A DNA stretch of 64,000 nt from Hyphomicrobiales bacterium (GTDB lineage: Bacteria > Pseudomonadota > Alphaproteobacteria > Rhizobiales > Rhizobiaceae), in assembly GCA_900469965.1 (NCBI GenBank), contig UBZP01000017.1, forward strand, positions 186,001 to 250,000, in the 5' to 3' direction. Below are positions 14,164 to 32,411 of the stretch, piece after piece. Numbering within the stretch: the stretch's first letter is position 1; each line of letters opens with the position of its first letter. Below the pieces are notes generated by a model. The model searched no databases, was not told where the DNA came from, and saw only the letters and a program-made list of their open reading frames with translations. Both the position numbers and the translations under genes were made by a program.

Positions 14164-15195
14164 ATGACGATTTCATTCAAGCAACCGCTTTACGCGGGCA
14201 TTGTCGCTTTGTGGCTGGCCGCATCGTTCTTCCATGGCGAGGCGCGTGCGGCGGAGACGACATATCCGTTGACGCTGCAGAACTGCGGACGTCCCGTCAC
14301 CTTCGAAAGAGCGCCGTCGCGTACCGTCTCGATCGGCCAGAGCAGCACCGAGATCCTCTACCTGCTGGGCCTTGCCGACAAGGTGGCGGGCACCGCGCTC
14401 TGGGTCGGCCCGGTGCTGAAGGGCTACGAGGACGTCAACGCCCGGATCGACAGGCTGGCAGACAACGATCCGAGTTTCGAGAGCGTGCTGGCCAGGAAGC
14501 CGGACATCGTCACCGTGCAGTTCCAGTGGCAGATCGGCCCCGAGGGCGTGGTCGCCCGGCCGGAGCAGTTCGAGGAGCTCGGCATTGCCGTCTACACCTC
14601 GCCGTCCGATTGCGTCGGCAAGGAGAACTCCGCCGCCAGCGACGGCGTGCGCCACCAGGTCTTCACCATGGACCTGGTCTACCAGGAGATCCGCGAGCTC
14701 GCACAGATCTATAATGTCCAGGACAGGGGCGAGGCCGTCGTCGCCGATCTGAAGCGGCGCGAGGCAGCCGCGCGCGCCAAGGTGAAGCCGGCCGAAGGCA
14801 AGCTCAAGGCCGTCTTCTGGTTTTCCAGCGCGGCCGATGCCGATCCCTATGTTGCCGGAAAGAACGGTGCGCCCGGCTACATCATGTCGGCGCTCGGCAT
14901 CGAGAACATCATCAAGACCGACGACGAATGGCCGACCGTCGGCTGGGAGACGATTGCCAAGGCCGATCCCACGATCATCGTCGCCGGCTCGATGGAGCGC
15001 CGCCGCTATCCGCTCGATAGTCTCGAGGCCAAGCTCGACTTCCTGAAGACCGATCCGGTCGCGAGCCTGATGCCGGCGGTCAAGAGCGGCCACGTCTTCG
15101 CCATGGACGCGCAGGCGATGAACCCGACGATCCGGACGATCGAGGGCATCGAGGCCCTGGCGGACGCCATCGCCGATGCCGGCCTCGCCCAGTGA
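14164..15195 (+). CDS. btuF: ABC transporter substrate-binding protein, cobalamin/metal-chelate type
   Basis: This 343-aa periplasmic protein has a signal peptide (hydrophobic residues 10-24, cleavage near ARAAE). It has the class III (BtuF/FhuD) fold signatures: RTVSIGQSSTEILYLLGLADKVAGT in lobe 1, KPDIVTVQF, then lobe 2 with WETIAKADPTIIV. It is longer than E. coli BtuF (266 aa). The upstream cobalamin riboswitch is the main reason to call the ligand a corrinoid; iron-siderophore binding cannot be excluded by family. It ends in a 4-bp overlap (GTGA) with the permease gene. Confidence 0.82.
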   Translation: MTISFKQPLYAGIVALWLAASFFHGEARAAETTYPLTLQNCGRPVTFERAPSRTVSIGQSSTEILYLLGLADKVAGTALWVGPVLKGYEDVNARIDRLADNDPSFESVLARKPDIVTVQFQWQIGPEGVVARPEQFEELGIAVYTSPSDCVGKENSAASDGVRHQVFTMDLVYQEIRELAQIYNVQDRGEAVVADLKRREAAARAKVKPAEGKLKAVFWFSSAADADPYVAGKNGAPGYIMSALGIENIIKTDDEWPTVGWETIAKADPTIIVAGSMERRRYPLDSLEAKLDFLKTDPVASLMPAVKSGHVFAMDAQAMNPTIRTIEGIEALADAIADAGLAQ

Positions 15196-16220
15196 GCCGG
15201 ACGCTGACATCGGGCACGCGGATGGGCGCGGCGTTTGCCGCGCTCGCCGTCCTGCTGCTGGCGCTCTGGATGGGGGCGGCGATCGGCGAGACGGCGATCC
15301 CGTTTCGGACGGTCGCCCAGACGGTGGCGAACCGGCTGTGGAGTGCCGGCTACCCGCTGGAGCCGATCGACGAGGGTATCATATGGAGCTACCGGCTGAG
15401 CCGGGCGGTCGTGGCGGCGTCCTGCGGGGCAGCACTCGCGCTCTCCGGCGCGGTGCTGCAGTCGCTGCTGCGCAATCCGCTCGCCGATCCCTACATCCTC
15501 GGCATTTCCGCCGGTGCCTCGACGGGCGCGGTCGGCGTGGCGATCCTGGGCGTCGGCGCGGGCATGCTGACCCTGTCGCTCGGCGCCTTCCTCGGCGCGA
15601 TCATCGCCTTTGCGCTCGTCAGCGTGCTGGCGGTCAAGGCGGGACGCGGCACGGCAGCGATCATCCTCGCCGGCGTCGCGGGCTCGCAGCTCTTCAACGC
15701 GCTCACCTCCTTCATCGTCACCAAGGCGGCGACGGCGGAGCAGGCGCGCGGCATCATGTTCTGGCTGCTCGGAAACCTGTCGGGTGTGCGCTGGCCGGAT
15801 GCCTGGCTGGCCGTGCCGGCCGCGCTCGCCGGCCTCGTCGTGTGCCTCTGGCATGCGCGCGCGCTGGACGCCTTCACCTTCGGCTCGGAATCGGCCGCCT
15901 CGCTCGGCATTTCGGTGCGGCGCACCCATCTCGCGCTCGTCGGGGTCTCGGCGATGATGACCGCGGTGATGGTCTCGATCGTTGGTTCGATCGGCTTCGT
16001 CGGCCTCGTCATCCCGCATGCGGCGCGACTGCTGGTCGGCGTCCGGCATGGCGTGCTGCTGCCGGCGGCGGCGCTCGCCGGTGCCGTCTTCATGATCGTC
16101 GCCGACATCCTGTCGCGCACCATCATTGCCGGTCAGGTGCTGCCGATCGGCGTGATCACGGCGCTGATCGGGGCGCCGGCCTTCGCGGTGATCCTTGCAA
16201 GAGGAAGGAGCAGGGCATGA
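15192..16220 (+). CDS. btuC: FecCD-family ABC permease (BtuC-like)
   Basis: This 342-aa inner-membrane protein has about ten transmembrane segments. Typical FecCD motifs are present: GAVLQSLLRNPLADPYILGIS near residue 85 and VGFIGLVIPHAARL-type residues near 275 (here IGFVGLVIPHAARLLVG). It forms the homodimeric channel for the binding protein upstream and the ATPase downstream. GTG at 15192 overlaps the btuF stop; it is the only start that gives a complete first membrane segment. Confidence 0.88.
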   Translation: MSRTLTSGTRMGAAFAALAVLLLALWMGAAIGETAIPFRTVAQTVANRLWSAGYPLEPIDEGIIWSYRLSRAVVAASCGAALALSGAVLQSLLRNPLADPYILGISAGASTGAVGVAILGVGAGMLTLSLGAFLGAIIAFALVSVLAVKAGRGTAAIILAGVAGSQLFNALTSFIVTKAATAEQARGIMFWLLGNLSGVRWPDAWLAVPAALAGLVVCLWHARALDAFTFGSESAASLGISVRRTHLALVGVSAMMTAVMVSIVGSIGFVGLVIPHAARLLVGVRHGVLLPAAALAGAVFMIVADILSRTIIAGQVLPIGVITALIGAPAFAVILARGRSRA

Positions 16221-17035
16221 GGCTTTCCGCCAGGTGCGTTTCGTGGTCGGCCGGCAGCGCCGATATTTTGAAGGATGTCTCGCTGGCGGTCGAGACGGGC
16301 GAGTTCCTCGGCATCATTGGGCCGAACGGCTCGGGCAAGACGAGCCTGATGTCGCTGCTCTCCGGCATCCGGAAGCCGAAGGCGGGCGACGTGCTGCTCG
16401 ACGACGTTCCGATCGCCGCGCTGGGCCGGCGCAGGCTGGCGCAGCGGCTGGCGCTGGTCGAACAGCAGGCGGAGACCGGCGAGCGCATCACCGCGCGCCA
16501 GGCGGTCGAGCTCGGCCGCACCCCCTATCTTGGCCCGCTGTCGCCGTGGTCGGCCGAAGACGACCGCATCGTCGACGCGGCGCTGGCGAACGTCGACATG
16601 GGCCATCTTGCGGGCAGGCTCTGGCACACGCTGTCGGGCGGCGAGCGGCAGCGGCTGCACATTGCTCGCGCACTCGCCCAGCAGCCGCGGATCCTGCTCC
16701 TGGACGAGCCGACCAACCACCTCGATATCGGCCACCAGATCGGCCTTCTCGACCTGGTCCGGCGCCAGGGGCTGACGGTGGTGGCGGCCCTGCACGACCT
16801 CAACCATGCCGCCATGTTCTGCGACCGGATCGCGGTGATGCAGGGCGGAAGGCTTATCGCCCTGGGGCGGCCGCAGGAGGTGCTGACGGTCGGGCGCATC
16901 CGCGAGGTCTTCGGCGTCGAGGTCGAGATCGGGCACGATCCCGACGGGAGTTGCCACATTCGCTTCCGCACGAAAGGGACGCCGGCGCGGCCGCGCCCCG
17001 CTCCCACAGCAAGCCTCTCGGTCCTGGGGGCCTGA
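16217..17035 (+). CDS. btuD: ABC transporter ATPase (BtuD/FepC-like)
   Basis: This 272-aa ATPase has Walker A GPNGSGKTS (about residue 37), Q-loop, signature LSGGERQR, Walker B ILLLDEPTNHLD and a switch histidine in ALHDLNHA. It couples ATP hydrolysis to the upstream permease. ATG 16217 overlaps the permease stop by 4 bp. The C-terminal 25 residues are proline/arginine rich and probably disordered. The operon continues with a methyltransferase after 5 bp. Confidence 0.9.
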   Translation: MRLSARCVSWSAGSADILKDVSLAVETGEFLGIIGPNGSGKTSLMSLLSGIRKPKAGDVLLDDVPIAALGRRRLAQRLALVEQQAETGERITARQAVELGRTPYLGPLSPWSAEDDRIVDAALANVDMGHLAGRLWHTLSGGERQRLHIARALAQQPRILLLDEPTNHLDIGHQIGLLDLVRRQGLTVVAALHDLNHAAMFCDRIAVMQGGRLIALGRPQEVLTVGRIREVFGVEVEIGHDPDGSCHIRFRTKGTPARPRPAPTASLSVLGA

Positions 17036-17040
17036 CGCCG

Positions 17041-17895
17041 ATGGATGTTCGAAACCACCACCTGAAGGAAGACATCCGCGAGTACTGGTCGAAGCGGTCG
17101 GAGACGTTCGACCTGGCCTTCGGCCATCGCATTCCGCCGGGATCGGAGTTCGAGGCCTGGGCGGCCGCGATCCGCGACGCGTTGGGGGCGGCGCCATGCA
17201 GGGTCCTGGAACTGGCCTGCGGCACCGGCGAGGTCACCAATGTCCTGCTCTCGCTCGGTCATCAGGTGGTGGCCCTCGATTTTTCCGAGGCGATGCTGCA
17301 GGTCGCCCAGCGCAAGCACGCGGGAAACGACAGGGTGCGCTTCATCCTGGCCGACGCCGAAAACACGATGGAGCCGGATGCGGCCTACGATGCCGTCGTC
17401 TGCCGGCATCTCGTCTGGACCCTGACCGCGCCGGAGCAGGCGCTCGCCGACTGGTACCGGCTGTTGAAACCGGGCGGCAGGCTGCTCGCCTTCGACGGCA
17501 ACTGGGCGCGACCGACGGCGATCGGGCGGCTGGCGCAGGGCGCGGTCGGAGCCCTGGAGCGCATCGTCGGCCACGATCCCCACTACGACGGGGCGATGAG
17601 CGAGCGCCACCAGGCCATCATGAGCCGCCTGCCGTTCGGCGACGGGCTGACGGCCGAACGGCTCGTGCCGCTGGTGGCGGCCGCGGGCTTCGGCGATATC
17701 CGCGTGCTGTCGCACCGCCCGATCGCGTCCGCCCAGCGCCGGACGGCCGATCTTCGCAACAGGCTGCGGACGCTGTTCTACCGCCGCTTCATCCTGACCG
17801 CCGCACGGCCGACCGTGCCGGAAGCGAGGAAGCAGAGAGAGGGCGGCGCAGGCGCGGATCCCGTTTCCGACACAGGGAACGAAAGACGACCTTGA
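17041..17895 (+). CDS. Class I SAM-dependent methyltransferase in the cobalamin-import operon
   Basis: This 284-aa protein has a Rossmann-like SAM domain: motif I LELACGTGEVTN (about residue 56), acidic loop VALDFSEAMLQVA, then ILADAEN and LKPGGRLLAFDGNW. It resembles UbiE/Coq5-like methyltransferases. The substrate is unknown. It lies 5 bp after btuD and so is under the same riboswitch. A role in modifying the imported corrinoid or a metal-chelator ligand is suggested by position only. The last 30 residues are low-complexity and charged. Confidence 0.75.
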   Translation: MDVRNHHLKEDIREYWSKRSETFDLAFGHRIPPGSEFEAWAAAIRDALGAAPCRVLELACGTGEVTNVLLSLGHQVVALDFSEAMLQVAQRKHAGNDRVRFILADAENTMEPDAAYDAVVCRHLVWTLTAPEQALADWYRLLKPGGRLLAFDGNWARPTAIGRLAQGAVGALERIVGHDPHYDGAMSERHQAIMSRLPFGDGLTAERLVPLVAAAGFGDIRVLSHRPIASAQRRTADLRNRLRTLFYRRFILTAARPTVPEARKQREGGAGADPVSDTGNERRP

Positions 17896-17934: not shown

Positions 17935-18759
17935 ATGCAAGACGATGCCACGCGTGCCGACGAACTGAGCGCGGATTCTCTGTGGACGACGCAGGGCGGC
18001 GGCGCATCGCCGGTCGTCGGCACGGCCATTCATGACGGCCATGCGGTGCGCCCGGACCTCCTTGACCGGATGCGGATTTCCGAGGACGGCCGGCTGCGCG
18101 AGGAGGATCCCTTCACGGGCACGATGATCCGCGACCTGCAGAACCGCATCGTCTTTCACCGCTCCCGCTTCGAGATCGACCTGAACAGGGCGCGCGACGG
18201 CGCCGTCTACCTCAGGCCGGAGCAGGCCTGGGGGATCGAGGTCTGGCGCGAGCAGCCGTCACCGGCGATGGTGGCCGAGAGCCTTGCGATCCACGATGCC
18301 TATTACGCGATGCTCGAGACCTACCTGCGCGAGATCGAGGAGCGGCACGGGCGTTTCGTCGTGCTCGACATCCACAGCTACAACCACCGCCGCGCCGGTC
18401 CCGACAAGGATCCGACGGATCCCGAGGCGGCCCCCGACATCAACATCGGCACCCATTCGATGGACCGGGAGCGCTGGGCGCCCGTCGTCGACGCCTTCCT
18501 CGACGTCGCCCGCAATTTCGATTTTCCGGGCAGGCGGCTGGACGTGCGCGAGAACGTGGCGTTCGAGGGGCGCGGCGAGCAGACGCGCTTCATCCATGAG
18601 CGGTTCGCCGAAAACGGCTGCGCGCTGGCGGTGGAGTTCAAGAAGGTCTTCATGGACGAGTGGACCGGAATGCCCGACCCGCGCGCGATCGCAGCCCTGC
18701 GGGCGCTGGTCAAGGCGTCGGTGCCGGCGCTGGAAAGGGCGCTGCGGGAGGTCTCATGA
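17935..18759 (+). CDS. N-formylglutamate amidohydrolase-family protein
   Basis: This 274-aa protein matches the FGase family (zinc amidohydrolases of the HutG type). Recognisable blocks are VVGTAIHDGHAVRP near residue 27, FHRSRFEIDLNRARDG and the VLDIHSYNHRR block that carries metal-binding residues. The known activity hydrolyses N-formyl-L-glutamate to glutamate and formate in histidine breakdown. There are no hut genes here. The gene instead leads a three-gene cluster with a MATCAP-type metallopeptidase (4-bp overlap) and an ATP-grasp ligase, so a different amide substrate is likely. Confidence 0.75.
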   Translation: MQDDATRADELSADSLWTTQGGGASPVVGTAIHDGHAVRPDLLDRMRISEDGRLREEDPFTGTMIRDLQNRIVFHRSRFEIDLNRARDGAVYLRPEQAWGIEVWREQPSPAMVAESLAIHDAYYAMLETYLREIEERHGRFVVLDIHSYNHRRAGPDKDPTDPEAAPDINIGTHSMDRERWAPVVDAFLDVARNFDFPGRRLDVRENVAFEGRGEQTRFIHERFAENGCALAVEFKKVFMDEWTGMPDPRAIAALRALVKASVPALERALREVS

Positions 18760-20651
18760 ACGCGGCGAGGACGGACGCCAGGAAAGGGCCGCCAAAGCAG
18801 GCCCCTGCGGTCGAGGACGCGCTGGCTGCGCTTGCGGCGGGCAGGTCCGTGCGCCAGGAGTTTGCGGGCGGGCGACTGCACATCGACCGCCCCCTGCCGT
18901 TCCTTTGCGTCCATGTGGGCGATCCCGACCATCATGCGGTGGCCCGCGAGATTGCGGCGGCGCACGCGTCCTACCTGCTTGTCGCCAAGGTCGAGGATGC
19001 CGTGGCGATCATTCCGCCACTTGCCGATGCGTTGCGGGAGCGCTTCGGTACGTTCGTCCTGCTCGATGTCGACGAACTACAGCGGGATCGGCTGCTGTCG
19101 GAGGATGCCCCGTTCCTGCAACCCTTCGAGGTCAAGCTGTCGGCGACGGACGGTACGTCTGCCACCGCCGCGATGATGGCCTTTGCCGGCGCCGTGGAGG
19201 CCTTCAAGGCGCGGTTTCGCACGCCGCGGGTCGAATGCCGCAAGGCGGCGGACGATCCTTGCGTCCGCGCGCCGTTGCTGGCGCTGCAGCTGCCGCTCCT
19301 CACCCTGCGCTTCGCCCCCATCCATCGCTCTCCGGGGTCGGATGCGATCTATCCGGAATTGCGCGACCGCATCGTCGACAACTTCCTCGATGCCGGCCTG
19401 CAGGCCTTCACGACGTTCCTCGCAGAAGAGGGCTTGCCGAAGCCCGCCACCCATCGGGTCTTGGGGCGCAAGGCCTTCATCGATGCCGTGGAACGCGCCG
19501 ACCGCGGCATGGACGAGGTCGCCTCCAGCTTCGATTTCCTGCTCGCCGTCACCCCCATCAATGCGAGCGCGGCGTGGCAGGAGTTCAAGGCCGACCGCTA
19601 CGACCGCCCGCCGCGGTTTCTCTACCGGCCGCTGGCGCTCCTGGTGGAGCGCGAGAAGCGGCGGCTCTATTCGATCGCGCTCGACCGGCTGGAGGATCCC
19701 GTCCTGCACCAGCTGTACCGCGAGAAGCAGCAGGAACTCGATCTGCAACTGACCCTGATCGGGCACCGCGAGAAGACCCGGTTCGTCGAGTTCGGCCGGG
19801 CCCTCTATGGTCCGGTCGAGCCGTCGCTGCGCGCCGTCGCGCTCGACGTGCTCGATCGCACCCGCGGCGCACGGCGCATGCCCTCGCTGGCGCAGGACGA
19901 CCGGGAAACGGTGGACTGCGCCTTCGTCGAGGATCGCGCCCGCGCGATGATGTCGGCCTATCATCGGCGCTATGACGGGTTCGACGCGAAGATCGAGCTG
20001 CGCGACGACGTGCCGGCCGGCCTGATGGTGTCGGGCAGGCGGCTTCTCATCTCGCGCCGCACGCGCATGATGCGCCACCGCGTCGATGCGCTTCTCAGCC
20101 ACGAGGTGGGCGTCCATCTGCTCACCTATTTCAACGGCTCCGCGCAGGGCCTGCGCGTCTTCCGCACCGGACTTGCCGGATATGAGGGCATGCAGGAGGG
20201 GCTTGCCGTCTTTGCCGAGTTCCTGGCCGGAGGCTTCACCTCGGAGCGGCTGCGCCTGCTCGCCGCCCGGGTGATCGGTTGCGAGCTGATGCTTTCGGGC
20301 GCGTCCTTCGTCGAGGCGTTCCGGGCAATGACGGACGAGCACGGGCTCGACGCCGAAACGGCCTTCGGGCTCTTGCTGCGCGTCTACCGCGGCGGCGGGC
20401 TCGCGAAGGATGCGATCTATCTCCGCGGTCTGCTGACGCTTCTGAGCCACCTGAAGGCCGGGGCGGCACTCGATCCGTTCTGGATGGGCAAGATCTCGGC
20501 GGCCCACTTCGGCGTCATGGAGGAGCTGGGTGCGCGCGGGCTCCTGAAGCCGCCGATCCTGCGGCCGCTCTGCCTCGACACCGACCGCGGCCGCGAGCGC
20601 CTGGCCAGGGCGCGCGCCGGCCTTTCCCCCCTTGCCATGCTCGAACCTTGA
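18756..20651 (+). CDS. QEGLA-motif (TIGR02421/DUF1704, MATCAP-like) putative metallopeptidase
   Basis: This 631-aa cytosolic protein carries the diagnostic QEGLA motif (Q480-A484) and, 26 residues before it, HEVGVH (H449, E450, H454), an HExxxH zinc-site pattern. The family is annotated as flavohemoglobin expression-modulating. The same Pfam domain (DUF1704) includes the eukaryotic tubulin tyrosine carboxypeptidases MATCAP1/2, which use HExxxH for zinc. I therefore infer a carboxypeptidase-like activity; this has not been shown for bacterial members to my knowledge. The N-terminal 300 residues are less conserved. Overlaps the FGase gene by 4 bp and precedes the ATP-grasp gene by 10 bp. Confidence 0.78.
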   Translation: MNAARTDARKGPPKQAPAVEDALAALAAGRSVRQEFAGGRLHIDRPLPFLCVHVGDPDHHAVAREIAAAHASYLLVAKVEDAVAIIPPLADALRERFGTFVLLDVDELQRDRLLSEDAPFLQPFEVKLSATDGTSATAAMMAFAGAVEAFKARFRTPRVECRKAADDPCVRAPLLALQLPLLTLRFAPIHRSPGSDAIYPELRDRIVDNFLDAGLQAFTTFLAEEGLPKPATHRVLGRKAFIDAVERADRGMDEVASSFDFLLAVTPINASAAWQEFKADRYDRPPRFLYRPLALLVEREKRRLYSIALDRLEDPVLHQLYREKQQELDLQLTLIGHREKTRFVEFGRALYGPVEPSLRAVALDVLDRTRGARRMPSLAQDDRETVDCAFVEDRARAMMSAYHRRYDGFDAKIELRDDVPAGLMVSGRRLLISRRTRMMRHRVDALLSHEVGVHLLTYFNGSAQGLRVFRTGLAGYEGMQEGLAVFAEFLAGGFTSERLRLLAARVIGCELMLSGASFVEAFRAMTDEHGLDAETAFGLLLRVYRGGGLAKDAIYLRGLLTLLSHLKAGAALDPFWMGKISAAHFGVMEELGARGLLKPPILRPLCLDTDRGRERLARARAGLSPLAMLEP

Positions 20652-20661
20652 GGAGAGCACC

Positions 20662-21708
20662 ATGCGGATTGCCTTTTTCGTCAATTCCATCGAGGGCGAG
20701 TCCCCGAACTACACCACGACGGGGCTCGCGCTCGCCGCCCTCGGCCGCGGCCACGACATCTGCTACCTGACGCCCGACGACTTCGTGCTGCGCGCCGATG
20801 ACAGCCTCTGCGTGCGCGGTCGCGCCCTGCCGTCCCGTCGCTACAAGAAGGTCGAAAGCCTCCATGCGGCGCTGCAGGGGGACGAGGCGACCGTCGAGAC
20901 GATGGACATCCGCGACATCGACGTGCTGTTCCTGCGCAACGATCCCTCGCTCGACGCGGACGCCCGGCCCTGGGCGGCGCATGTAGGGGCCATGTTCGGC
21001 CGGCTCGCTGCGGCGCGCGGCGTCGTCGTCGTCAACGACCCCGACGGTCTGTCGCTCGCGCAGAACAAGCTCTATTTCCAGGGCTTTCCGCCGGCCGTCC
21101 GGCCGGAGACGCTGATATCGAAGAGCATCGACGAGATCCGGGGCTTCCTCGACGCCCATCCCAAGGGCGCGATCATGAAGCCGCTGCAGGGCTCCGGCGG
21201 CAAGAACGTGTTCAAGATCGGTTCGCCCGACGAGACCAACCTCAACCAGATCTTCGAGGCGGTGAGCGGCGAAGGATACCTGATCGCGCAGAACTATCTG
21301 CCCGCGGCCACGGAGGGCGATATCCGCCTGTTCCTGATGAACGGCCGGCCGCTGGAACGGGACGGCAAGTATGCGGCGATCCGCAGGGTGCCGGCGAAGG
21401 GCGAGGTGCGCTCCAACATCCATGCGAGCGGCAAGGCCGTGGCCGTCGAGATCACGCCGGAGATCCTCGCCATCGCGGAGATGGTGCGGCCCAAGCTCGT
21501 CGAGGACGGCATGTTCCTGGTGGGCCTCGACATCGTCGGCGACAAGATCCTCGAGATCAACGTGTTCACGCCGGGCGGCCTGAACATCATGCATGATCTC
21601 TACGAGGTCGACTTCGCCGAAACGGTCATCCAGGCGCTGGAAGGAAAGGTCGCCCAGCGCGACGCCTATGCCGGCGCGATCGCCAACCGGACGCTCGCCA
21701 CGCTCTAG
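20662..21708 (+). CDS. Glutathione-synthetase/RimK-like ATP-grasp ligase
   Basis: This 348-aa protein has an N-terminal preATP-grasp domain (MRIAFFVNSIEGE) and an ATP-grasp domain with KPLQGSGGKNVFKI (glycine loop, about residue 175). The C-terminal metal-binding EINVFTPGG is also present. Such enzymes join a carboxylate to an amine through an acylphosphate. True glutathione synthetase is normally encoded elsewhere in rhizobia, so this is likely a paralogue with another substrate. ATG 20662 follows GAGGAGAG. It is the last gene of the trio with the FGase-like and MATCAP-like proteins. Confidence 0.8.
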   Translation: MRIAFFVNSIEGESPNYTTTGLALAALGRGHDICYLTPDDFVLRADDSLCVRGRALPSRRYKKVESLHAALQGDEATVETMDIRDIDVLFLRNDPSLDADARPWAAHVGAMFGRLAAARGVVVVNDPDGLSLAQNKLYFQGFPPAVRPETLISKSIDEIRGFLDAHPKGAIMKPLQGSGGKNVFKIGSPDETNLNQIFEAVSGEGYLIAQNYLPAATEGDIRLFLMNGRPLERDGKYAAIRRVPAKGEVRSNIHASGKAVAVEITPEILAIAEMVRPKLVEDGMFLVGLDIVGDKILEINVFTPGGLNIMHDLYEVDFAETVIQALEGKVAQRDAYAGAIANRTLATL

Positions 21709-22000
21709 GGGCGGGCCGTTGCGACCTGAACCCTTCGGAGCAGGCGAGGGGGGCGCGGCTTGTCGCGGCATACACTGACCGCCGCGGCCATTCACCCGAT
21801 GCGATACCCATGGATCACCACGTGCCGTTGACGTAAGATTCGGCGGAGCGGGCTTGCGCGCCTCGCGGCACGGGACGAAGTGCCTGCACGGGGGCGGGCG
21901 GCCAGGCATGGACGTCGTATGGCGCAGCCGGCCCGCGGCGGCCGCCCGGGTGCCGCGGAGGCAGGCGAGCGGACCTATGCCGCGACCACAGGGAGCATGG

Positions 22001-23710
22001 ATGAGCAACAGCTTTGGCCTGCCCATCTTCAGGGGACTGTCTGGATACAGGGCGGCCTGGGTGCGTGGCGACATCTCGGCGGGGCTCTCGATTGCGGCCG
22101 TCGGCCTGCCCAGCGCCATCGCCTATCCCGCCATCGCCGGGCTGCCGCCGGAGACGGGCATCTATGCGAGCATCGCCGCACCTTTGGCCTATGCCGTCTT
22201 CGGCGATTCCAGGCGCCTGATCGTCGGCCCCGATGCAGCCACGATGACGGTCCTTGCGGCAGCAATCGTGGCGATTGCCGCAGGCGTGCCCGCCTCCGCG
22301 GGCATCGACCCGGCGGGGATCGCGGCCGCCCTTTCCATCGGCGTCGGCGTCCTCTGCCTCATCGCCAGGGTGATGCGGCTCGGCGTGCTTGCGACCTTCC
22401 TCTCCCGCCCCATTCTCGCCGGCTTCTTCGCCGGCATCTCGGTGTCGATCCTGATCGGCCAGATCGGCCGCTTCACCGGCGTCCGGATCGAGGCAGACGG
22501 GTTGCTCGCGCCGCTGGTCGAACTCCTGCAGAAGCGGGACCTGATCCATTGGCCGACGGTGGCGCTGGCGCTTGCCATGTTCGCGCTCCTGCAGGTGGTC
22601 AGGGCCCTGCGCTTCCCGGTGCCCGGCCCGGTGGTGGTCGTCGCGGCCGCCGTCGCGCTGTCGGCCCTGTTCGATTTCAAGGGAATGGGCATTGCCGTCG
22701 TCGGCGACATTCCCACCGGCTTTCCCACCCTCTCTCTGCCGCCGCTCGCCAGCCTGCCGATCGACGGCCTCCTCCTCGGGGCCGCCTCGGTGTTCCTCGT
22801 CAGCTTCGGATCGGGCATCGTCGCGGCGCGGAGCTTCGGCGCCCGGATCGGCGAGGACGTGGATGCCAACGGAGAGCTGTCCGGCCTCGGCAGCGCCAAT
22901 ATCGCGAGCGGGCTCTTCGGGGCCTTTCCCGTCAGCTTCTCGGATTCCAGGACGGCGATCAATCTCTCCGTCGGCGGCCGGTCGCAACTCGCCGGCGTGG
23001 TGTCGGCGCTGGCGCTGATCGCGACGCTGCTCTTTCTCAACGATGCCCTGCGCATCCTGCCGGTGGCAGCGCTCGCGGCGATCCTGGCCGCGGCCGCGAT
23101 CGGCCTCATCGACATCGCCGAACTGAAGCAGGTCTGGCGGATCAGCCGCATGGAATTCGTCTTCGCGCTGATCACCATGTGGGGGGCCATCAGCCTCGGC
23201 GTCCTCAACGGCGTCGTCATCGCGATTGCCGCGACCCTCGTCTACCTGCTCAGAAACATGATGTACCCGCGCGATGCCTTCCTCGGGCGCATTCCCGGCC
23301 GGGACGGTTTCTACAAGCTGCATCGCCGCGCCGACGCGCAGCCGGTGCCCGGCCTCGTCCTCTGGATGCTCGAGGGCAGCCTGCTGTTCTTCAACACGGA
23401 CTACGTGCACGACCGCCTGCGCGCCATCATCGCGGAGCTTCCCAAGGACACGCGCTGGTTCATCCTGGACGCGAGCGCCATCACCCAGATGGACAGCACC
23501 GCGACGGCGATGATGGACGAAATCCGGGAGGAGATGGCGGCCTGCGGCATCGAGCTCGGCCTCGTGGAGGTTCACGCCGAGGCGCGGGTGCTTCTCGAGC
23601 GGGCCGGCGTGATCGACAGGATCGGCGCCGGTCGCGTGTTCGACGATCTCGACGATGCGCTGCAGGCATTCGGGGACCAGGACATCAAGGACGGCGCCGC
23701 CGGACGCTAA
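22001..23710 (+). CDS. SulP-family anion transporter with C-terminal STAS domain
   Basis: This 569-aa membrane protein has about 11-13 hydrophobic segments, with SulP signatures such as GLPPETGIYASIAAPLAYA near residue 48. A cytoplasmic STAS domain follows from about residue 440 (VLWMLEGSLLFFNTDYV, FILDASAITQMDSTATAMM). SulP proteins move sulfate, bicarbonate or other anions, usually with Na+ or H+; the substrate is not predictable here. I chose ATG 22001 after GGGAG because the N-terminus then matches the family; the open frame extends 49 codons further upstream with poor, arginine-rich sequence. Confidence 0.85.
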   Translation: MSNSFGLPIFRGLSGYRAAWVRGDISAGLSIAAVGLPSAIAYPAIAGLPPETGIYASIAAPLAYAVFGDSRRLIVGPDAATMTVLAAAIVAIAAGVPASAGIDPAGIAAALSIGVGVLCLIARVMRLGVLATFLSRPILAGFFAGISVSILIGQIGRFTGVRIEADGLLAPLVELLQKRDLIHWPTVALALAMFALLQVVRALRFPVPGPVVVVAAAVALSALFDFKGMGIAVVGDIPTGFPTLSLPPLASLPIDGLLLGAASVFLVSFGSGIVAARSFGARIGEDVDANGELSGLGSANIASGLFGAFPVSFSDSRTAINLSVGGRSQLAGVVSALALIATLLFLNDALRILPVAALAAILAAAAIGLIDIAELKQVWRISRMEFVFALITMWGAISLGVLNGVVIAIAATLVYLLRNMMYPRDAFLGRIPGRDGFYKLHRRADAQPVPGLVLWMLEGSLLFFNTDYVHDRLRAIIAELPKDTRWFILDASAITQMDSTATAMMDEIREEMAACGIELGLVEVHAEARVLLERAGVIDRIGAGRVFDDLDDALQAFGDQDIKDGAAGR

Positions 23711-23749: not shown

Positions 23750-24892
23750 TCAGGGTGCGGCGTGCGGTCCACCGGGGCTCGCCCCGGGGTCGTCGGCCGG
23801 CGGCTGCGGCCCGTCCGCCTGTCGGACCCAGGCGACCAGCAGGTCATAGAACACGCTGAGCACGATCGGCCCGAGGAAGAGGCCGATCAGGCCGTAGGCG
23901 ATCGTGCCGCCGATCACGCCGGTGAGGATCACCAGCATCGGTGTCGACAGGCCGCGCGAGACGAGGATCGGCTTCAGGATGTTGTCGATCACCGCGATCG
24001 GCACGAGCAGCAGGGTCAGGACCAGCGCCGTCCCGGCCGGCATGGACAGCCAGCCCCAGATGACGACGGGCAGCAGCACGAGGCCGGGGCCGAGCTGGAT
24101 GATGCAGAGAATGAGGATGACGAAGGTCAGGATGGCGGTGGCGGGCACCTGAAAGGCATAGAGCACCATCCCGGCGAGGAGCGTCTGCAGCAGGGCGACG
24201 CCGATGACGCCGCTTGCGACGTTGCGGATCGTCGAGGTGGCAAGCCGGATGAAGCCGACGCCGCGATCGCCGGCGATCCGGTAGGCGAAGCGATCGGTGT
24301 TCTCCGCCAGCCGCGGGCCGGGCACCAGCAGGAAGCCCGAGACGATCACCGAGGCCATGAAGGCCAGGAGACCCATGCCGATGCTGGCGATCTTGCCGAG
24401 CACCGCGCCGCCGGCCTTGATCAGCGTCGGCTGAAAGCGATCGATGGTGTCGGTGAGGTTGGTGGTCGCGAGCGACCAGGCCCGATGCAGCTCCTCGCCG
24501 AAGACGGGCCATTCGCGGAGGCTGGCGGGCGGGGTCGGAAGATGCAGCGTGCCCGCCTCGAGGTCGCGCGCCAGGCGCTCCGAAGCCTCGAGAAAGCCGA
24601 GGCTCAGGGCCGCCAGCGGTCCCAGGATGATGGCGATGTTGAGCGCCGTCAGCATGATGGCGGCGAGCCGCTTGCTGCCGCCGAGCGCGACCGTGAGAGC
24701 CCGGTATGCGGGATAGAGCGCCACCGCCAGGATCGCCGCCCAGATGACGATGACGAGGAACGGCGCCACCAGCTTCAGCGACCAGTAGGCGAAGAGGCCG
24801 ACGATGCCGAACCGGACGACGTTGGTGACCGTCGCTTCCATTCCCGCGTTGTCTTTCCGTGCAGCGGGAGCTTGGGACACGTGTTCGTCCAT
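23750..24892 (-). CDS. AI-2E family (PerM/TqsA-like) transporter
   Basis: This 380-aa membrane protein has the family pattern: two N-terminal membrane segments, a central soluble loop (about residues 95-155) and a C-terminal block of five to six segments. The conserved LIGLFLGPIVLSVFYDLL segment is close to the C-terminus. Family members include the AI-2 exporter TqsA and Na+/H+ antiporters; substrate unknown. It is convergent with the SulP gene. The C-terminal 20 residues are Pro/Gly rich. A second, distinct member is encoded at 45928-46980. Confidence 0.85.
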   Translation of the reverse strand: MDEHVSQAPAARKDNAGMEATVTNVVRFGIVGLFAYWSLKLVAPFLVIVIWAAILAVALYPAYRALTVALGGSKRLAAIMLTALNIAIILGPLAALSLGFLEASERLARDLEAGTLHLPTPPASLREWPVFGEELHRAWSLATTNLTDTIDRFQPTLIKAGGAVLGKIASIGMGLLAFMASVIVSGFLLVPGPRLAENTDRFAYRIAGDRGVGFIRLATSTIRNVASGVIGVALLQTLLAGMVLYAFQVPATAILTFVILILCIIQLGPGLVLLPVVIWGWLSMPAGTALVLTLLLVPIAVIDNILKPILVSRGLSTPMLVILTGVIGGTIAYGLIGLFLGPIVLSVFYDLLVAWVRQADGPQPPADDPGASPGGPHAAP

Positions 24893-25154
24893 GCGCCTCC
24901 TCCAGGTCTCTGCATGCTGTCGAAAAACGTGCTCGCCGTATGTCGTGCGCAGAAGCGGCGATCTTCGGGCCGCGGCCGGTCGGTCGGGGGGTGGTGATGA
25001 CCTTCGAGGGGAATCCGCTTGCGTGTGCGCCCTGCCGCCAACCCTGAAAAAAATGATACCAACTATCCCTGTCCGGGGCGAGCGGATTGAACGAAGGGCT
25101 TGCTGCCTGGTTCCGACCGCCCGTATCCTGCACGGGCCATGGGGGCGATGCCGG

Positions 25155-25889
25155 ATGCACGAACAGGATGCCGCTGCGGCGGAAAACCACGAAAGGGCGC
25201 GCGACTGGGTCGTCGCGGTGCCGGTCGCAGCCGCCCTTGCCGTGCTCGGCGACCGGGATCTGCTCGACCGGGCGGAGCGCCGGCAGGCCGCGACCTTCGT
25301 CCGGCAGGAGGACCGCGACCGCTACACGGCCGCACACCTTTTGATGCGCCAGGCGCTCGGTGCATCGATGGGCCGCCACCCCGCGGGGCTGGCGTTCCGG
25401 CGGGAGCCCAACGGCAAGCCGGTGCTCGTCGATGCGCCGGGCGTGGACGTCAATCTCTCCCACAGCGGCGCCTGGATCGCCGTCGGGCTGTCCCGGTCCG
25501 GCCGGCTCGGCGTCGATGTGGAAGAGGACAGGCCGGAGGCGTTCTGGCGCGAGATGGCCGCGTCCTTCCTGTCTCCCGACGAGATTGCCGCCACGACGCT
25601 GCCCGGCAGCGCGCAGTTCCTGAAATTGTGGACGGCGAAAGAGGCGGCCCTGAAGGCGGAAGGCAGCGGTCTGTCGATCGCGCCCGACCGGATCACGGTG
25701 GCCCACCGGCCGGACGGCTTCCGCGTTTGTCTGCCCGCGGGCACCTATGACGGCGGCTGGCTGCGCCTCGACGACGCCCACATGCTGGCCGCGGCAACGG
25801 ACGGCGCGCCCTTGCGGCTCCTGCGGTGCAGCGATCAGGCGGCGTTGCGGCAGGTCCTGCACGACCTCGGCGACGGCGCCATCGGCTGA
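25155..25889 (+). CDS. 4'-phosphopantetheinyl transferase (Sfp type)
   Basis: This 244-aa Sfp-superfamily enzyme has motif P1-like NLSHSG, the Mg2+-binding GVDVEED (about residue 120) and WTAKEAALKAEGSGL (WxxKEAxxK, about residue 160). It transfers 4'-phosphopantetheine from CoA to carrier-protein serines of NRPS, PKS or similar systems. No carrier-protein gene is in the window. The start is ATG 25155; the frame is open further upstream without coding character. It stands alone on the plus strand between two minus-strand genes. Confidence 0.88.
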   Translation: MHEQDAAAAENHERARDWVVAVPVAAALAVLGDRDLLDRAERRQAATFVRQEDRDRYTAAHLLMRQALGASMGRHPAGLAFRREPNGKPVLVDAPGVDVNLSHSGAWIAVGLSRSGRLGVDVEEDRPEAFWREMAASFLSPDEIAATTLPGSAQFLKLWTAKEAALKAEGSGLSIAPDRITVAHRPDGFRVCLPAGTYDGGWLRLDDAHMLAAATDGAPLRLLRCSDQAALRQVLHDLGDGAIG

Positions 25890-28027: not shown

Positions 28028-29215
28028 ATGCGTACAGACAATCGAGTGAGCATATCGTCAGCCTCCGAGACCGTCTTCAATCCCGCCCTCCTGCGTTCGC
28101 GCCGGCCGGAAGCCAGGGCCGTGCCGGTGCCGGAGCATGTCGCCGGCGGAGCGGCGTCCCCCGCGCTTTCCGCCTACACCTTCTCCACCGAGGAGGTTCC
28201 GGTCGCCGACCGCTTCGATGCCTGGCGCCGCAGTTTTGCGCCGATGGTCGACCTGACGCGGGATGCGAAGGGGGACTTCCGCGGCAGCCAGGTCCTCTGG
28301 GACCTCGGCGGTATCGGCTTTTCCCGCATCCGGACGCAAGCGCTGCGGTTCTCCAGCCGCCCCGCCCATCTCCAGTGCCATCCGCTCGACCACTGGGTGA
28401 TGACGTTGCTGCTCAGCGGCCAGTGCACCACGACGACGGCGCGCACCACGTTCCAGGCGCGTCCGGGCATCGTGCAGATCCATGCGCTGGGCCGGCCGTT
28501 TCACGGCACGCTTTCGGACAGCGAGATGCTGATGCTCTGGGTGCCGCGGGATTTCTGCCGCGACCTGGCGCGCACGCTCGATGCCGCGGAGTTCACGACA
28601 CTGGACACCGCCATGGGGCGCATGTTCACGAGCTTCATGATCGGTCTCGCCCATCAGCTCGCCTGCATGCGGGTCGATGAGCTGCCGAGACTGATGTCGG
28701 CCACCCGCGACATGATCCTGGCCTGCGTGCCCCCGCCGCGTGATCGCGCCGAAGAGGGAGGCGATGCGATCTCGGGCGGCCTGCAGGAGCGGGCGCGGCA
28801 GTTTGTCCAGATGAACCTGTTCAACCCGCGACTGAGCGCGAAACTTCTGATGCGCGAGCTGGCCGTTTCGCGCACCCGGCTCTACCGGCTGTTCGAACCG
28901 GTGGGCGGCGTCAACCGCTACATCCAGCACCGGCGCCTGCTCGACGCCCATTCCGCCTTGGCGAACCCGAACGAGCAGCGCCGCATCCTGGAGATCGCCG
29001 AGCAGCGCTGCTTCGACAGCGCCGATTTCAGCCGGGCCTTCAAGCGCGAATTCGGCTACAGCCCCAGCGAGGTCCGCAAGGGCATGCGGATCGGCTCGCC
29101 GCGCTATGGCGAGACTAACCTGTCCAGCCTGCCGCCGGAAGACCGGCTCGGCGCGCTCCTGTGGAGGCTACAGACCGGGGCGAAGCCCGATGTTGCCCCC
29201 TGCAGCATGACCTGA
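28028..29215 (+). CDS. AraC-family transcriptional regulator
   Basis: This 395-aa regulator has an N-terminal AraC-binding-like domain (about residues 50-220; VADRFDAWRRSFAPMVDL, then LDHWVMTLLLSGQ) and a C-terminal double helix-turn-helix with MRELAVSRTRLYRLFEPVGGVNRYIQ. It ends in the usual second motif, RCFDSADFSRAFKREFGYSPSEVR, plus a 40-residue tail. Similar proteins are numerous in rhizobia and mostly uncharacterised. It is convergent with the RND efflux operon, so it need not regulate it. The 40 residues before the sensor domain are low-complexity. Confidence 0.85.
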   Translation: MRTDNRVSISSASETVFNPALLRSRRPEARAVPVPEHVAGGAASPALSAYTFSTEEVPVADRFDAWRRSFAPMVDLTRDAKGDFRGSQVLWDLGGIGFSRIRTQALRFSSRPAHLQCHPLDHWVMTLLLSGQCTTTTARTTFQARPGIVQIHALGRPFHGTLSDSEMLMLWVPRDFCRDLARTLDAAEFTTLDTAMGRMFTSFMIGLAHQLACMRVDELPRLMSATRDMILACVPPPRDRAEEGGDAISGGLQERARQFVQMNLFNPRLSAKLLMRELAVSRTRLYRLFEPVGGVNRYIQHRRLLDAHSALANPNEQRRILEIAEQRCFDSADFSRAFKREFGYSPSEVRKGMRIGSPRYGETNLSSLPPEDRLGALLWRLQTGAKPDVAPCSMT

Positions 29216-29321: not shown

Positions 29322-32300
29322 TCATGCCGGTGACGGCGCGGCTTCCGTTTCGCCGGCGGCGGCCGCTTGCGTCTTTGCCTCCGGAGGGACGCGGAACCAG
29401 ACCACGTAGAGCGCCGGAAGGAAGATCAGCGTCAGCACCGCCGCCACGATCAGGCCGCCGATCACGGTGAACGCGAGCGGCTTCCAGAAGGGATCGCGCA
29501 CGATCGGCAGCATGCCGAGGATGGTCGAGCCGGCGGTCAGGAAGATCGGGCGGACGCGGTTTGCGGTCGCATCGATGACGCTCTCCCAGCTCTTGCCCTT
29601 CTCCGCGATCCGCTTGTCGATCTGGTCGATGAGCACGACCGAGTTGCGGATGATCATGCCGATCAGCGCGATCATGCCGAGGACGGCGATGAAGCCGACC
29701 GGCGTATTGGTGATCAGCATGATCGCCACCACGCCGATCAGCCCGAGCGGCACGACGCTGAGCACCAGCAGCAGGCGATTGACGCTCTGCAGCTGGAACA
29801 TCAGGATGACGACCATGATGATCGCCATGATCGGCAGCATGGCGGTCACCGAGGCCATGCCGGTCTCCGCTCCCTCCACCGATCCGCCGATCTCGATCTT
29901 GTAGCTCGGATTGTCCAGGCGCAGCTGCGCGATCCGCGGTTCGGCCTCCTCGACCACCGAGGCTGCGAGCACGCCTTCGGTCATGTCGGCCTGGACGGTG
30001 ATGGTGGTGACGCGATCGCGCCGCCAGATCAGCGGCTGGGTCGTGCGGTATTCGATCGTGGCGATGCTTGCCAGCGGCACGGTGCGGTTCGGGCCGATCG
30101 GTATCTGCAGCGACCGCAGCGTCTCGATGTTGGCGCGCTCCTCCGGCGCCGAGCGCGCTACGACGTTGACGAGGTAGATGGAATCCCGCACCTGGGTGAT
30201 CGGCAGGCCGGAGGTGGTGGCGAAGAGCGATTGCCCGATGGCGGTCGAGTTCAGCCCGACGAGGCGGGCGCGATCCTGGTCGACATCGATGACGACCTTG
30301 CGGATCGGCTCGTTCCAGTCGAGGTTCGGGGTGATCACGCCGCGGACGTCGCCGATCACGTCGGCCACCTTCCAGGCGAGATCGCGCACGCCTGCGACAT
30401 CGGGGCCGCTGATGCGATACTGCACCGGCCAGCCGACCGGCGGCCCCATCTCCAGCGGCGAGAGCCGCGCGACGACATTGGGGAATTTCTCGTCCAGCTC
30501 CGTCTGCAGGCGGGCCTGCAGGGCATCGCGGCCATCGACGCTGCTGGCGATGATGACGGCCTGCGCCCGGAACGGCGCCGGCGGCTGGATATCCATCGGC
30601 AGGTAGAAGCGGATCGCATCCGAGCCGACATAGAAGCTCCAGTCGACCACGTCCTCATCCGCGGCGAGGATCTCCTCGACCTCGCGCGCCGTCGCTTCGG
30701 TCGCATGGATGGAGGCGTTCTGCGGAAGCACCAGCTGCAGCATGAGTTCAGGGCGGTCGGACGGCGGGAAGAACTGCCGTTTCATCAACCCGGAGGCCAG
30801 CAGCGAAACCACGAACAGGCCGACGGTCGCGGCGATCACCACGAAGCGCATCTGCACGCAAGTGTGCAACAGGCGGCGGAAGGTTCCGATCAGGGCGCTT
30901 TCCGGCTTGCGGTCCGCGGGCGTGCCCGACTTCAGGACCGCAAGCCCGATGATCGGCATCAGGAGCACCGCGATCAGCCACGAGATGATCAGCGCATAGG
31001 CGATGACGAGGAAGAGCGAACGGGCATATTCGCCGGAGACGCTCTGGGCGAAGCCGACCGGAATGAAGCCGGCGATGGTCACGAGCGTGCCGGCGAGCAT
31101 CGGGAAGGCCGTCGAGGTATAGGCGAAGGAGGCGGCCTGGACCCGCTCCATCCCTTCCTCGAGCTTGGCCAGCATGATCTCGACGGCGACCATGGCATCG
31201 TCGATCATCAGCGTCAGCGCGATGATCAGGGCGCCGAGCGAGACGCGCTGCAGCGCGATCCCGGTCATCTCCATCATCAGGAAGGTCATGGCCATCACCA
31301 GCGGGATGGACACGGCGACCACGAGGCCGGCGCGCAGGCCGAGTGCGACGAGGCTGCAACCGAGCACGATCAGGATCGCCTGCATCAAGGAGACGGTGAA
31401 GCCGCGGATCGCATTGGTGACGACCGCCGGCTGGCTTGCGACCTGCACCATCTCGATGCCGATCGGCAGGTCGTGCTGGAATCGCGCCATCACGGTGTCG
31501 ATGTTGCGGCCGAGCGCGAGGATGTCGCCCCCGCTCGCCATCGACACGGCGATGCCGATCGCCGGCTTGCCCTTGACGCGGAACATCGGCTGCGGCGGGT
31601 CGACGGTGCCGCGCATCACGGTGGCGATGTCGCCGAGGCGGACGAAGCCGGACGAGGTCGGAATGTTCAGGTTGCGGATGTCGTTCTCGTCCTTCAGGTC
31701 GCCTGTGACCTCGAGCACCGTGCGGTCAGCATCCGTCGTCACCATGCCGGCGGGCAGGACGGCGTTCTGCGCCTGGATCGTCGCAATGATCGTGCTGCCG
31801 CTCAGGCCCAGGCTGGCCAGCCGTTGCGTCGAGAATTCGATGAAGATCGTCTCGTCCTGGGTGCCGAGCATCTCGACCTTGCCGATGTTCTCCACCTGCA
31901 GCAGGCGATTGCGCGCCTCGTAGGCCCAGTCCCGCAGCTCCCGGTCGCTGAAATCCTCCGACGTCAGCCCGTAGATGATGCCGAAGGTGTCGCCGAACTC
32001 GTCGTTGAAGAACGGGCCGAGGACGCCGGCAGGCAGCGTATGGCGGATGTCGCCGACCGTCTTGCGGACCTGGTACCAGACATCGGCGACCTCGGCCGGC
32101 GGGGTGGAATCCTCCAGCACCACATAGATGACGGACTGGCCGGCCGTCGTCAGGCTGCGCAGGGAATCGAAGAACGGCACCTGCTGCAGCGCGCGCTCCA
32201 GCCGGTCGGTCACCTGGTCGCTCTGCTGCTCGATCGTCGCCCCCGGCCAGGCCGCGGTGACGAGCATGGTCTTGACCGTGAAATCCGGATCCTCGCTGCG

Positions 32301-32411
32301 GCCGAGGTTCCAGAAGGACAGCGCGCCGGCGATCGCGCCGAGCAGCATCAGGAAGATGATCAGGCCCTGGCGCCGGATCGCCCATTCGGAGAGGTTGAAG
32401 CCGCCGCTCAT
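29322..32411 (-). CDS. RND efflux transporter, inner-membrane permease
   Basis: This 1029-aa AcrB/MexF-type protein has a first membrane helix at residues 13-32, a large periplasmic loop, then helices 2-6. The proton-relay pair is in LIIALTLMIDDAMVAVE (two adjacent Asp, as D407/D408 of AcrB). A second similar half ends with GLIVAAVLTLIFLPALYVVWF. It exports drugs or other amphiphiles with the adaptor encoded upstream (4-bp overlap). No outer-membrane channel gene is adjacent, so a shared TolC-type channel is expected. Substrate cannot be predicted. Confidence 0.92.
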   Translation of the reverse strand: MSGGFNLSEWAIRRQGLIIFLMLLGAIAGALSFWNLGRSEDPDFTVKTMLVTAAWPGATIEQQSDQVTDRLERALQQVPFFDSLRSLTTAGQSVIYVVLEDSTPPAEVADVWYQVRKTVGDIRHTLPAGVLGPFFNDEFGDTFGIIYGLTSEDFSDRELRDWAYEARNRLLQVENIGKVEMLGTQDETIFIEFSTQRLASLGLSGSTIIATIQAQNAVLPAGMVTTDADRTVLEVTGDLKDENDIRNLNIPTSSGFVRLGDIATVMRGTVDPPQPMFRVKGKPAIGIAVSMASGGDILALGRNIDTVMARFQHDLPIGIEMVQVASQPAVVTNAIRGFTVSLMQAILIVLGCSLVALGLRAGLVVAVSIPLVMAMTFLMMEMTGIALQRVSLGALIIALTLMIDDAMVAVEIMLAKLEEGMERVQAASFAYTSTAFPMLAGTLVTIAGFIPVGFAQSVSGEYARSLFLVIAYALIISWLIAVLLMPIIGLAVLKSGTPADRKPESALIGTFRRLLHTCVQMRFVVIAATVGLFVVSLLASGLMKRQFFPPSDRPELMLQLVLPQNASIHATEATAREVEEILAADEDVVDWSFYVGSDAIRFYLPMDIQPPAPFRAQAVIIASSVDGRDALQARLQTELDEKFPNVVARLSPLEMGPPVGWPVQYRISGPDVAGVRDLAWKVADVIGDVRGVITPNLDWNEPIRKVVIDVDQDRARLVGLNSTAIGQSLFATTSGLPITQVRDSIYLVNVVARSAPEERANIETLRSLQIPIGPNRTVPLASIATIEYRTTQPLIWRRDRVTTITVQADMTEGVLAASVVEEAEPRIAQLRLDNPSYKIEIGGSVEGAETGMASVTAMLPIMAIIMVVILMFQLQSVNRLLLVLSVVPLGLIGVVAIMLITNTPVGFIAVLGMIALIGMIIRNSVVLIDQIDKRIAEKGKSWESVIDATANRVRPIFLTAGSTILGMLPIVRDPFWKPLAFTVIGGLIVAAVLTLIFLPALYVVWFRVPPEAKTQAAAAGETEAAPSPA

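Follow-up and report, generated by a model that had tools for sequence, protein, structure and literature searches.

The window analysed here, 64,000 nucleotides from a Hyphomicrobiales genome (contig UBZP01000017.1, positions 186,001 to 250,000), contains three tightly packed genes on the plus strand that form a real and widespread unit. They encode an N-formylglutamate amidohydrolase (FGase)-like protein (FG), a MATCAP/TIGR02421 protein (QE) and an ATP-grasp ligase (AG). We suggest that the trio is an amide-bond ligate-and-trim module that serves osmotic and ion adaptation, a reading to which we give a probability of a little under one half (0.48). AG would couple an amino acid or amine to a carboxylate acceptor at the expense of ATP; QE would act as a bacterial zinc carboxypeptidase of the MATCAP type that takes off the terminal residue; and FG, a metallohydrolase of the M14 fold, would cut an amide of the N-acyl-amino-acid type. 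FG and QE may work as a physical pair: some lineages have them fused, and others have a separate, presumably active FG and a QE that retains a dead FGase domain. The module would probably help cells to adapt where osmolarity is low and ion (Mg) conditions are altered.

The initial annotation had described three overlapping or nearly touching genes, and all three are present as placed (Table 1), each with a strong family match. FG scores 89.7 bits against PF05013 (cut-off 28.9), QE 295.5 bits against PF08014 (cut-off 27) and 353.5 bits against TIGR02421 (cut-off 338.65), and AG 472.7 bits against NF009110/PRK12458 (cut-off 408) and 172.2 bits against PF02955. The stop codon of FG and the start codon of QE share an ATGA, and with ATG 18756 as the start of QE the proposed numbering of its metal-binding motif (H449, E450, H454) is exact. 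AG most likely begins at ATG 20662 rather than at TTG 20632, since a GAGGAG lies ahead of the former and the QE stop 10 bases before it.

The trio is conserved as a unit. A scan with the QE alignment confirmed at least 570 loci, and in all of the best 80, which carry organism names and are mostly from Rhizobiales, the genes follow the order FG-QE-AG on one strand. Within these 80, a contig end truncates AG in two loci (L154, L164; L and G numbers denote loci and genomes) and FG in another (L163), L168 is split between frames, and one gene intervenes between QE and AG in L166. The sequence titles of trio loci name six phyla: Gemmatimonadota, Phycisphaerae/Planctomycetota, Verrucomicrobia, Acidobacteria, Calditrichaeota and Proteobacteria.

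The initial annotation had made its case depend on common co-occurrence of the three genes. Across TIGR02421 as a whole this expectation fails, as most members of the family lie outside any trio, but for proteins like the QE of the window co-occurrence is the rule. The family occurs in 47 of 398 Pseudomonadota genomes, and AG stands beside QE at 14 of its 52 places there outside the window's own genome, all of which were inspected. All 14 are among the 18 QEs that we call A-type, defined by at least 330 bits on a purpose-built profile made mostly from trio-type sequences; 11 of the 14 also have FG, fused to QE in 6. None of the 34 B-type QEs has AG or FG beside it. At a threshold of 1e-40, TIGR02421 is found in 46/294 genomes of the phylum to which a Planctomycetota-titled seed belongs, 11/247 of Acidobacteria, 3/240 of Verrucomicrobia and 5/150 of Gemmatimonadota. 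A second survey covered 30 stretches from these phyla, a selected set in which mostly long reading frames were chosen; it held 31 A-type QEs, of which 27 had AG and 18 had both AG and FG, and one B-type without. Pooled, AG adjoins 41 of 49 A-type and 0 of 35 B-type QEs. Seen from the ligase, the association is nearly complete. An above-cut-off match to NF009110 occurs in 14 of 398 Pseudomonadota genomes, 13 of them with QE (the fourteenth match starts at base 48 of its contig), and in 12 of 189 Planctomycetota-group genomes, all with QE, so that QE is found in 25 of 26 genomes having a PRK12458 ligase. A few additional AGs have no QE match on their contigs (G557:C20, G552:C120, G599:C286). The distances of the three members covary over 18 split-type loci from outside the alphaproteobacteria (Spearman 0.73 for FG-QE, 0.60 for FG-AG, 0.77 for QE-AG; values this high arose in no more than 1 of 2000 permutations), which is also expected from linked co-inheritance. 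No account of the trio was found in the open-access literature searched; Iyer et al. (Mol Biosyst, 2009) reportedly surveyed amidoligase neighbourhoods and may have noted this one. The B-type QEGLA/MATCAP proteins (for example L035-L037, L049-L051 and L056-L069) look like a separate subfamily. Three loci (L038, L075, L076) encode MATCAP-only proteins of 393 residues that are close in sequence to the fused type, with no FG or AG nearby.

By score, by its HExxxH motif and distal glutamate, and by predicted fold, QE is a member of the MATCAP family (PF08014)/TIGR02421. The best matches of its model (predicted local distance difference test, pLDDT, 93.6) in the PDB are human MATCAP (7z5g/7z6s; E 6e-8, template-modelling score, TM, 0.69 by target) and then M32 carboxypeptidases, and the parallel with MATCAP drawn by the initial annotation thus holds at the level of the predicted structure. 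A profile search of the PDB found MATCAP at E 2e-14, with its EEG motif aligned on the QEG of QE; a single-sequence search gave no match. Residues H449, E450, H454, Q480 and E481 are invariant in 64 of 64 aligned QEs, and E481 is the probable third metal ligand. The zinc triad that had been proposed is thus supported by invariant residues and a matching predicted fold, and QE is a putative zinc-dependent carboxypeptidase. Together with the co-occurrence, the invariant zinc-site residues and MATCAP-like fold support a linked function for the three genes.

FG is a member of the N-formylglutamate amidohydrolase family (PF05013), as judged from its score and the FGase fold of its model (pLDDT 94.4). 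The model matches FGase 2q7s with TM 0.74, followed by FGase 2odf, the M14 carboxypeptidases 3k2k, 4b6z and 4a37 (E about 4e-4, TM 0.3-0.4) and CCP5 (8v3p, E 2.5e-3); a profile search of the PDB gave no match, 2q7s being found by fold instead. Eight residues (H33, E56, E57, R78, N84, R85, H147, E234) are invariant in 50 of 50 aligned FGs. As for a HutG-type deformylase, FG matched no NCBIfam family at E ≤ 0.001.

A feature overlooked by the initial annotation is that residues ~20-225 of QE constitute a separate domain. Profile comparison identifies this N-terminus as a decayed FGase domain, a new finding. Its approximately 200 residues match FG in a profile-profile search (96.6%, E 6.3e-10; 0.2% for AG as a control), the alignment lacks the catalytic segments of FG, and fused relatives carry an intact FGase at the same position. 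Two results count against the assignment: the domain alone has no Pfam FGase match, and a Foldseek search with the whole QE model retrieves 2q7s at a weak E of 0.058. Fusion of FGase and MATCAP domains in one protein, also new here, is seen in Vibrio sp. HDW18 (L170), in Photobacterium (L222, L223), in a member of the window's class (L045), in the Planctomycetota survey (L172) and in other pseudomonadotal classes (L039, L070, L073, L074). L071 is intermediate, its fused FGase domain scoring 52 bits against PF05013 and having lost the DIHSYN motif. Since fusion occurs elsewhere and QE bears the decayed domain, the separate FG and QE correspond to the fused protein, from which we infer that they make contact and share a substrate; the dead domain may dock FG. 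A third new observation is tandem duplication of ligases or of QE-ligase pairs. Two AGs are found in L159, three each in L162 and L175, and two, before FG-QE, in L183; in the largest array (L196, G1087:C17) three QE-AG pairs come after a single FG. AGs that share a locus have 57-75% identity to one another. Multiplication of QE and AG as pairs suits a ligase/peptidase unit, and multiplication of AG alone suits successive ligations.

The proposed physiological setting is drawn from neighbouring genes and from published expression data. A further new observation is that genes for MscS-type channels or Mg transporters lie near a part of the copies outside the alphaproteobacteria. This set comprises 47 loci, including L043, Vibrio L170 and others that lack AG, and leaves out the short L163 and L164 as well as L045, from a genome of the window's class. 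An MscS-type channel is encoded at 12 of the 47, CorA at 7, MgtE at 4 and any of these at 16, or 17 when Rlo genes are added; MgtE lies between QE and AG in L166, and the gene next after the last AG of L162 is of the MscS type. Searched with the same seeds, 37 QE loci that lack AG yielded none (p 2.4e-5), and 20 arbitrary loci drawn from nine of these genomes yielded one (p 0.010). In three of the 47 loci (L044, L046, L087) AG has directly downstream of it Rlo-like genes for a retropepsin, a 7TM inactive transglutaminase and a TIGR02291 ATP-grasp protein, and L048 has fragments of them. Rlo peptidases of Pseudomonas aeruginosa are reported to be required under hypo-osmotic stress, and RloA to cut poly-Glu (PMC12239564). 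In Photobacterium damselae at low salt, data given in PMC10308900 put a 'GshB' gene (RS17020) up 38-fold and a QEGLA gene (RS17025) up 27-fold, along with a 52-fold rise of RimK (RS00405); RS17020 is interpreted there as a glutathione synthetase. Because two other Photobacterium records place AG immediately before fused FG-QE, RS17020 and RS17025 are, by analogy, very probably AG and FG-QE. A table for V. vulnificus lists VV2_1203 (COG3930) next to VV2_1204, a glutathione synthetase (PMC3091676). A LysR gene on the opposite strand lies upstream of the module in seven loci (L042, L044, L048, L055, L170, L222, L223) and is a possible shared regulator; that of L044 is HdfR-like, below cut-off, and in Vibrio L170 maoP/DUF413 lies between LysR and the module.

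Several observations weigh against a ligate-and-trim module with an osmotic role. Five of the 16 channel or transporter loci come from one class (that of G133), without which the count is 11 of 39 (p 2.9e-4 and 0.033 against the two controls); because the families were picked after their recurrence had been seen in clustering, all of these p-values are optimistic. Alphaproteobacterial loci have such a neighbour in 8 of 74 cases, MscS only, and the window itself has no MscS, CorA or MgtE neighbour. An adjacent AG is missing for 8 of the 49 A-type QEs (3 of the 8 at contig ends). Vibrio sp. HDW18 has fused FG-QE with no AG beside it, and the division into A- and B-type rests on our own 330-bit score on a largely trio-derived profile. 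FG is absent near AG-QE in L048, L177, L180, L184 and L187 and lies on the opposite strand in L181, and the L071 locus yielded no FG beyond its degenerate fused FGase domain. Ligation and removal may oppose each other in a cycle, as the initial annotation supposed; the three AGs that accompany one QE in both L162 and L175 point rather to stepwise synthesis.

That the trio reflects chance or simple rhizobial synteny, without a functional link, has almost no probability: Rhizobiales do dominate the 80 best loci, but the other phyla and pseudomonadotal classes, the gene fusion and the changed surroundings all contradict it. A glutathione or gamma-glutamyl-peptide operon, with AG as a second glutathione synthetase and FG and QE as peptide salvage hydrolases, is improbable. 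The AG profile matches GshB (1gsa) in the PDB at E 3e-61, with RimK-type ligases next (3e-19 to 2e-18), and K136, K173, R222, R242, R250, D290, E298 and N300, invariant in 44 of 44 aligned AGs, align with GshB residues that we take to be ATP-, Mg- and substrate-binding. Two AGs (L070, L045) narrowly pass one glutathione-synthase model (281 and 277 against 272) and fail the other; in G026, where there is a GshA-type match, AG alone matches NF009110; and PRK12458 is counted as GshB in the review PMC3462692. Against this, the AG of the window falls below both models (TIGR01380, 191.4 against 299.05; NF003573, 208.1 against 272), and a separate gene of the same genome (L225) passes both and is a true GshB. 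Each of G263, G361, G323 and G387 also has a further gene that passes both, and G549 and G263 show no match to the GshA model PF04107, other GshA types not having been searched. Housekeeping glutathione synthesis was accordingly rejected as the main role, a true GshB accompanying AG in the five genomes tested, even though AG stands alone in G026. A relationship of AG to TTL, with which the initial annotation had drawn a fold parallel, was likewise rejected: a sequence search gave no Pfam TTL match at E ≤ 0.001, GshB and then RimK being closest, so that any link to TTL would be one of analogy. Support thus extends to a shared function of the three genes and stops short of the specific parallel with TTL.

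Two further readings would retain the ligase and its trimming partners and change their substrate or order. It is possible, if doubtful, that the trio makes a small peptide-like metabolite or osmolyte, with one or more AGs adding residues sequentially and FG and QE stripping protecting or leader residues, in series rather than in a cycle. The tandem AGs beside one QE (L159, L162, L175), the pair in L183 and the array of L196 speak for such a pathway. Yet no other biosynthetic or export gene recurs, the search for a conserved fourth gene over 74 alphaproteobacterial loci returning only a generic ABC ATPase cluster (30/74, at varying positions) and LysR genes, and one ligase with two hydrolases is, in our judgement, unusual for plain synthesis. 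Rather unlikely is modification of the RimK/RimB kind, in which AG would extend the tail of a ribosomal or membrane protein and QE and FG remove residues from it. GshB-like ligases act classically on small substrates, and no target protein stood out next to the trio, though no systematic search for one was made. In its favour are the RimK-type ligases as the next relatives of AG of solved structure, the Rlo-like genes directly 3' of three loci with their reported poly-Glu cleavage and hypo-osmotic requirement (PMC12239564), the joint rise of RimK, GshB-like and QEGLA genes at low salt in Photobacterium (PMC10308900), and the tubulin tails on which MATCAP/TMCP enzymes are reported to act (PMC10499314). 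At its boldest, and improbably, this would amount to a bacterial protein-tail code, in which AG writes residues onto the terminus of a membrane or ribosomal protein and two metallopeptidases, the MATCAP homologue and the M14-fold enzyme, erase them, tuning osmotic and Mg handling. If so, the folds with which eukaryotes modify the tails of tubulin (ATP-grasp ligases, MATCAP and M14 carboxypeptidases) would be gathered in one bacterial operon, and such a module could be the ancestor of eukaryotic MATCAP.

Table 1. Features of the FG-QE-AG unit (positions in the window)
Feature	Position	Strand	Description
FG	17935..18759	+	PF05013 N-formylglutamate-amidohydrolase-like M14-fold metallohydrolase, 274 residues
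QE	18756..20651	+	Decayed FGase-like N-terminal domain and MATCAP/TIGR02421 metallopeptidase (predicted), 631 residues
QE residues ~20-225	18813..19430	+	Degenerate FGase-like domain without FG catalytic segments
HExxxH metal-binding motif of QE (H449, E450, H454)	20100..20117	+	Invariant, 64/64 aligned
QEG of QEGLA (QE residues 480-482)	20193..20201	+	E481 probable third metal ligand, 64/64; aligned with EEG motif of human MATCAP
AG	20662..21708	+	PRK12458-type (GshB-like) ATP-grasp ligase, 348 residues

The closest named relative among the matches listed is Mycoplana azooxidifex (88% over QE), and TIGR02421 is patchy within the window's genus (4 of 7 genomes). An anti-phage defence role was rejected, PADLOC models at E ≤ 0.01 giving 0 families for each of FG, QE and AG. 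Upstream, at 14164-17895, lie genes for a FecCD-type importer (binding protein, permease, ATPase) and for a class I methyltransferase, the latter ending 39 bases short of FG. The transporter scores best with models of the EitA/EitC and 'F420-0' ABC families but reaches the cut-off of none. Downstream of AG and on the same strand is a SulP-family anion permease with a STAS domain (21995-23710). A 4'-phosphopantetheinyl transferase gene (24804-25889), near which lie an AraC regulator (28028-29215) and an AcrB-type pump (29322-32411, minus strand), may belong to a siderophore or similar cluster.

The three-enzyme unit has been masked by the names under which its members are filed: 'flavohemoglobin expression-modulating', 'glutathione synthase' and 'N-formylglutamate amidohydrolase'. 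Its recognition would correct the annotation of the strongly salt-regulated 'GshB' of Photobacterium damselae, which is very probably this ligase. It also supplies a genetic partner, and a stress context open to testing, for the bacterial relatives of MATCAP, the tubulin-tail peptidase, and defines a gene set for the discovery of a new metabolite or protein modification.

Among known systems, RimK/RimB and RloABC resemble the trio in encoding an ATP-grasp ligase with a peptidase, and the Rlo peptidases, needed for hypo-osmotic survival according to PMC12239564, have likenesses encoded after the trio in three loci. Their peptidases are retropepsin-like, whereas those of the trio are of the MATCAP and M14 kinds, and a Pfam scan found no match to the retropepsin-like PF05618 in FG, QE or AG. 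FG is predicted to share the fold of N-formylglutamate amidohydrolase 2q7s at 18% identity; its resemblance to bacterial and eukaryotic CCPs is distant and reflects the general M14 fold (TM 0.3-0.4). AG is homologous to E. coli GshB (1gsa) over its whole length and keeps the aligned catalytic and ligand residues, but it belongs to the PRK12458 subfamily, scores in the window below the glutathione-synthase cut-offs and coexists with a true GshB. QE shares with human MATCAP1/TMCP1 (KIAA0895L, 7z5g) a homologous C-terminal domain, the HExxxH motif and an equivalent glutamate as probable third ligand. It differs in having QEG in place of EEG, in that no tubulin substrate is expected, and in carrying an N-terminal domain derived from an FGase and in having a ligase as its operon partner.

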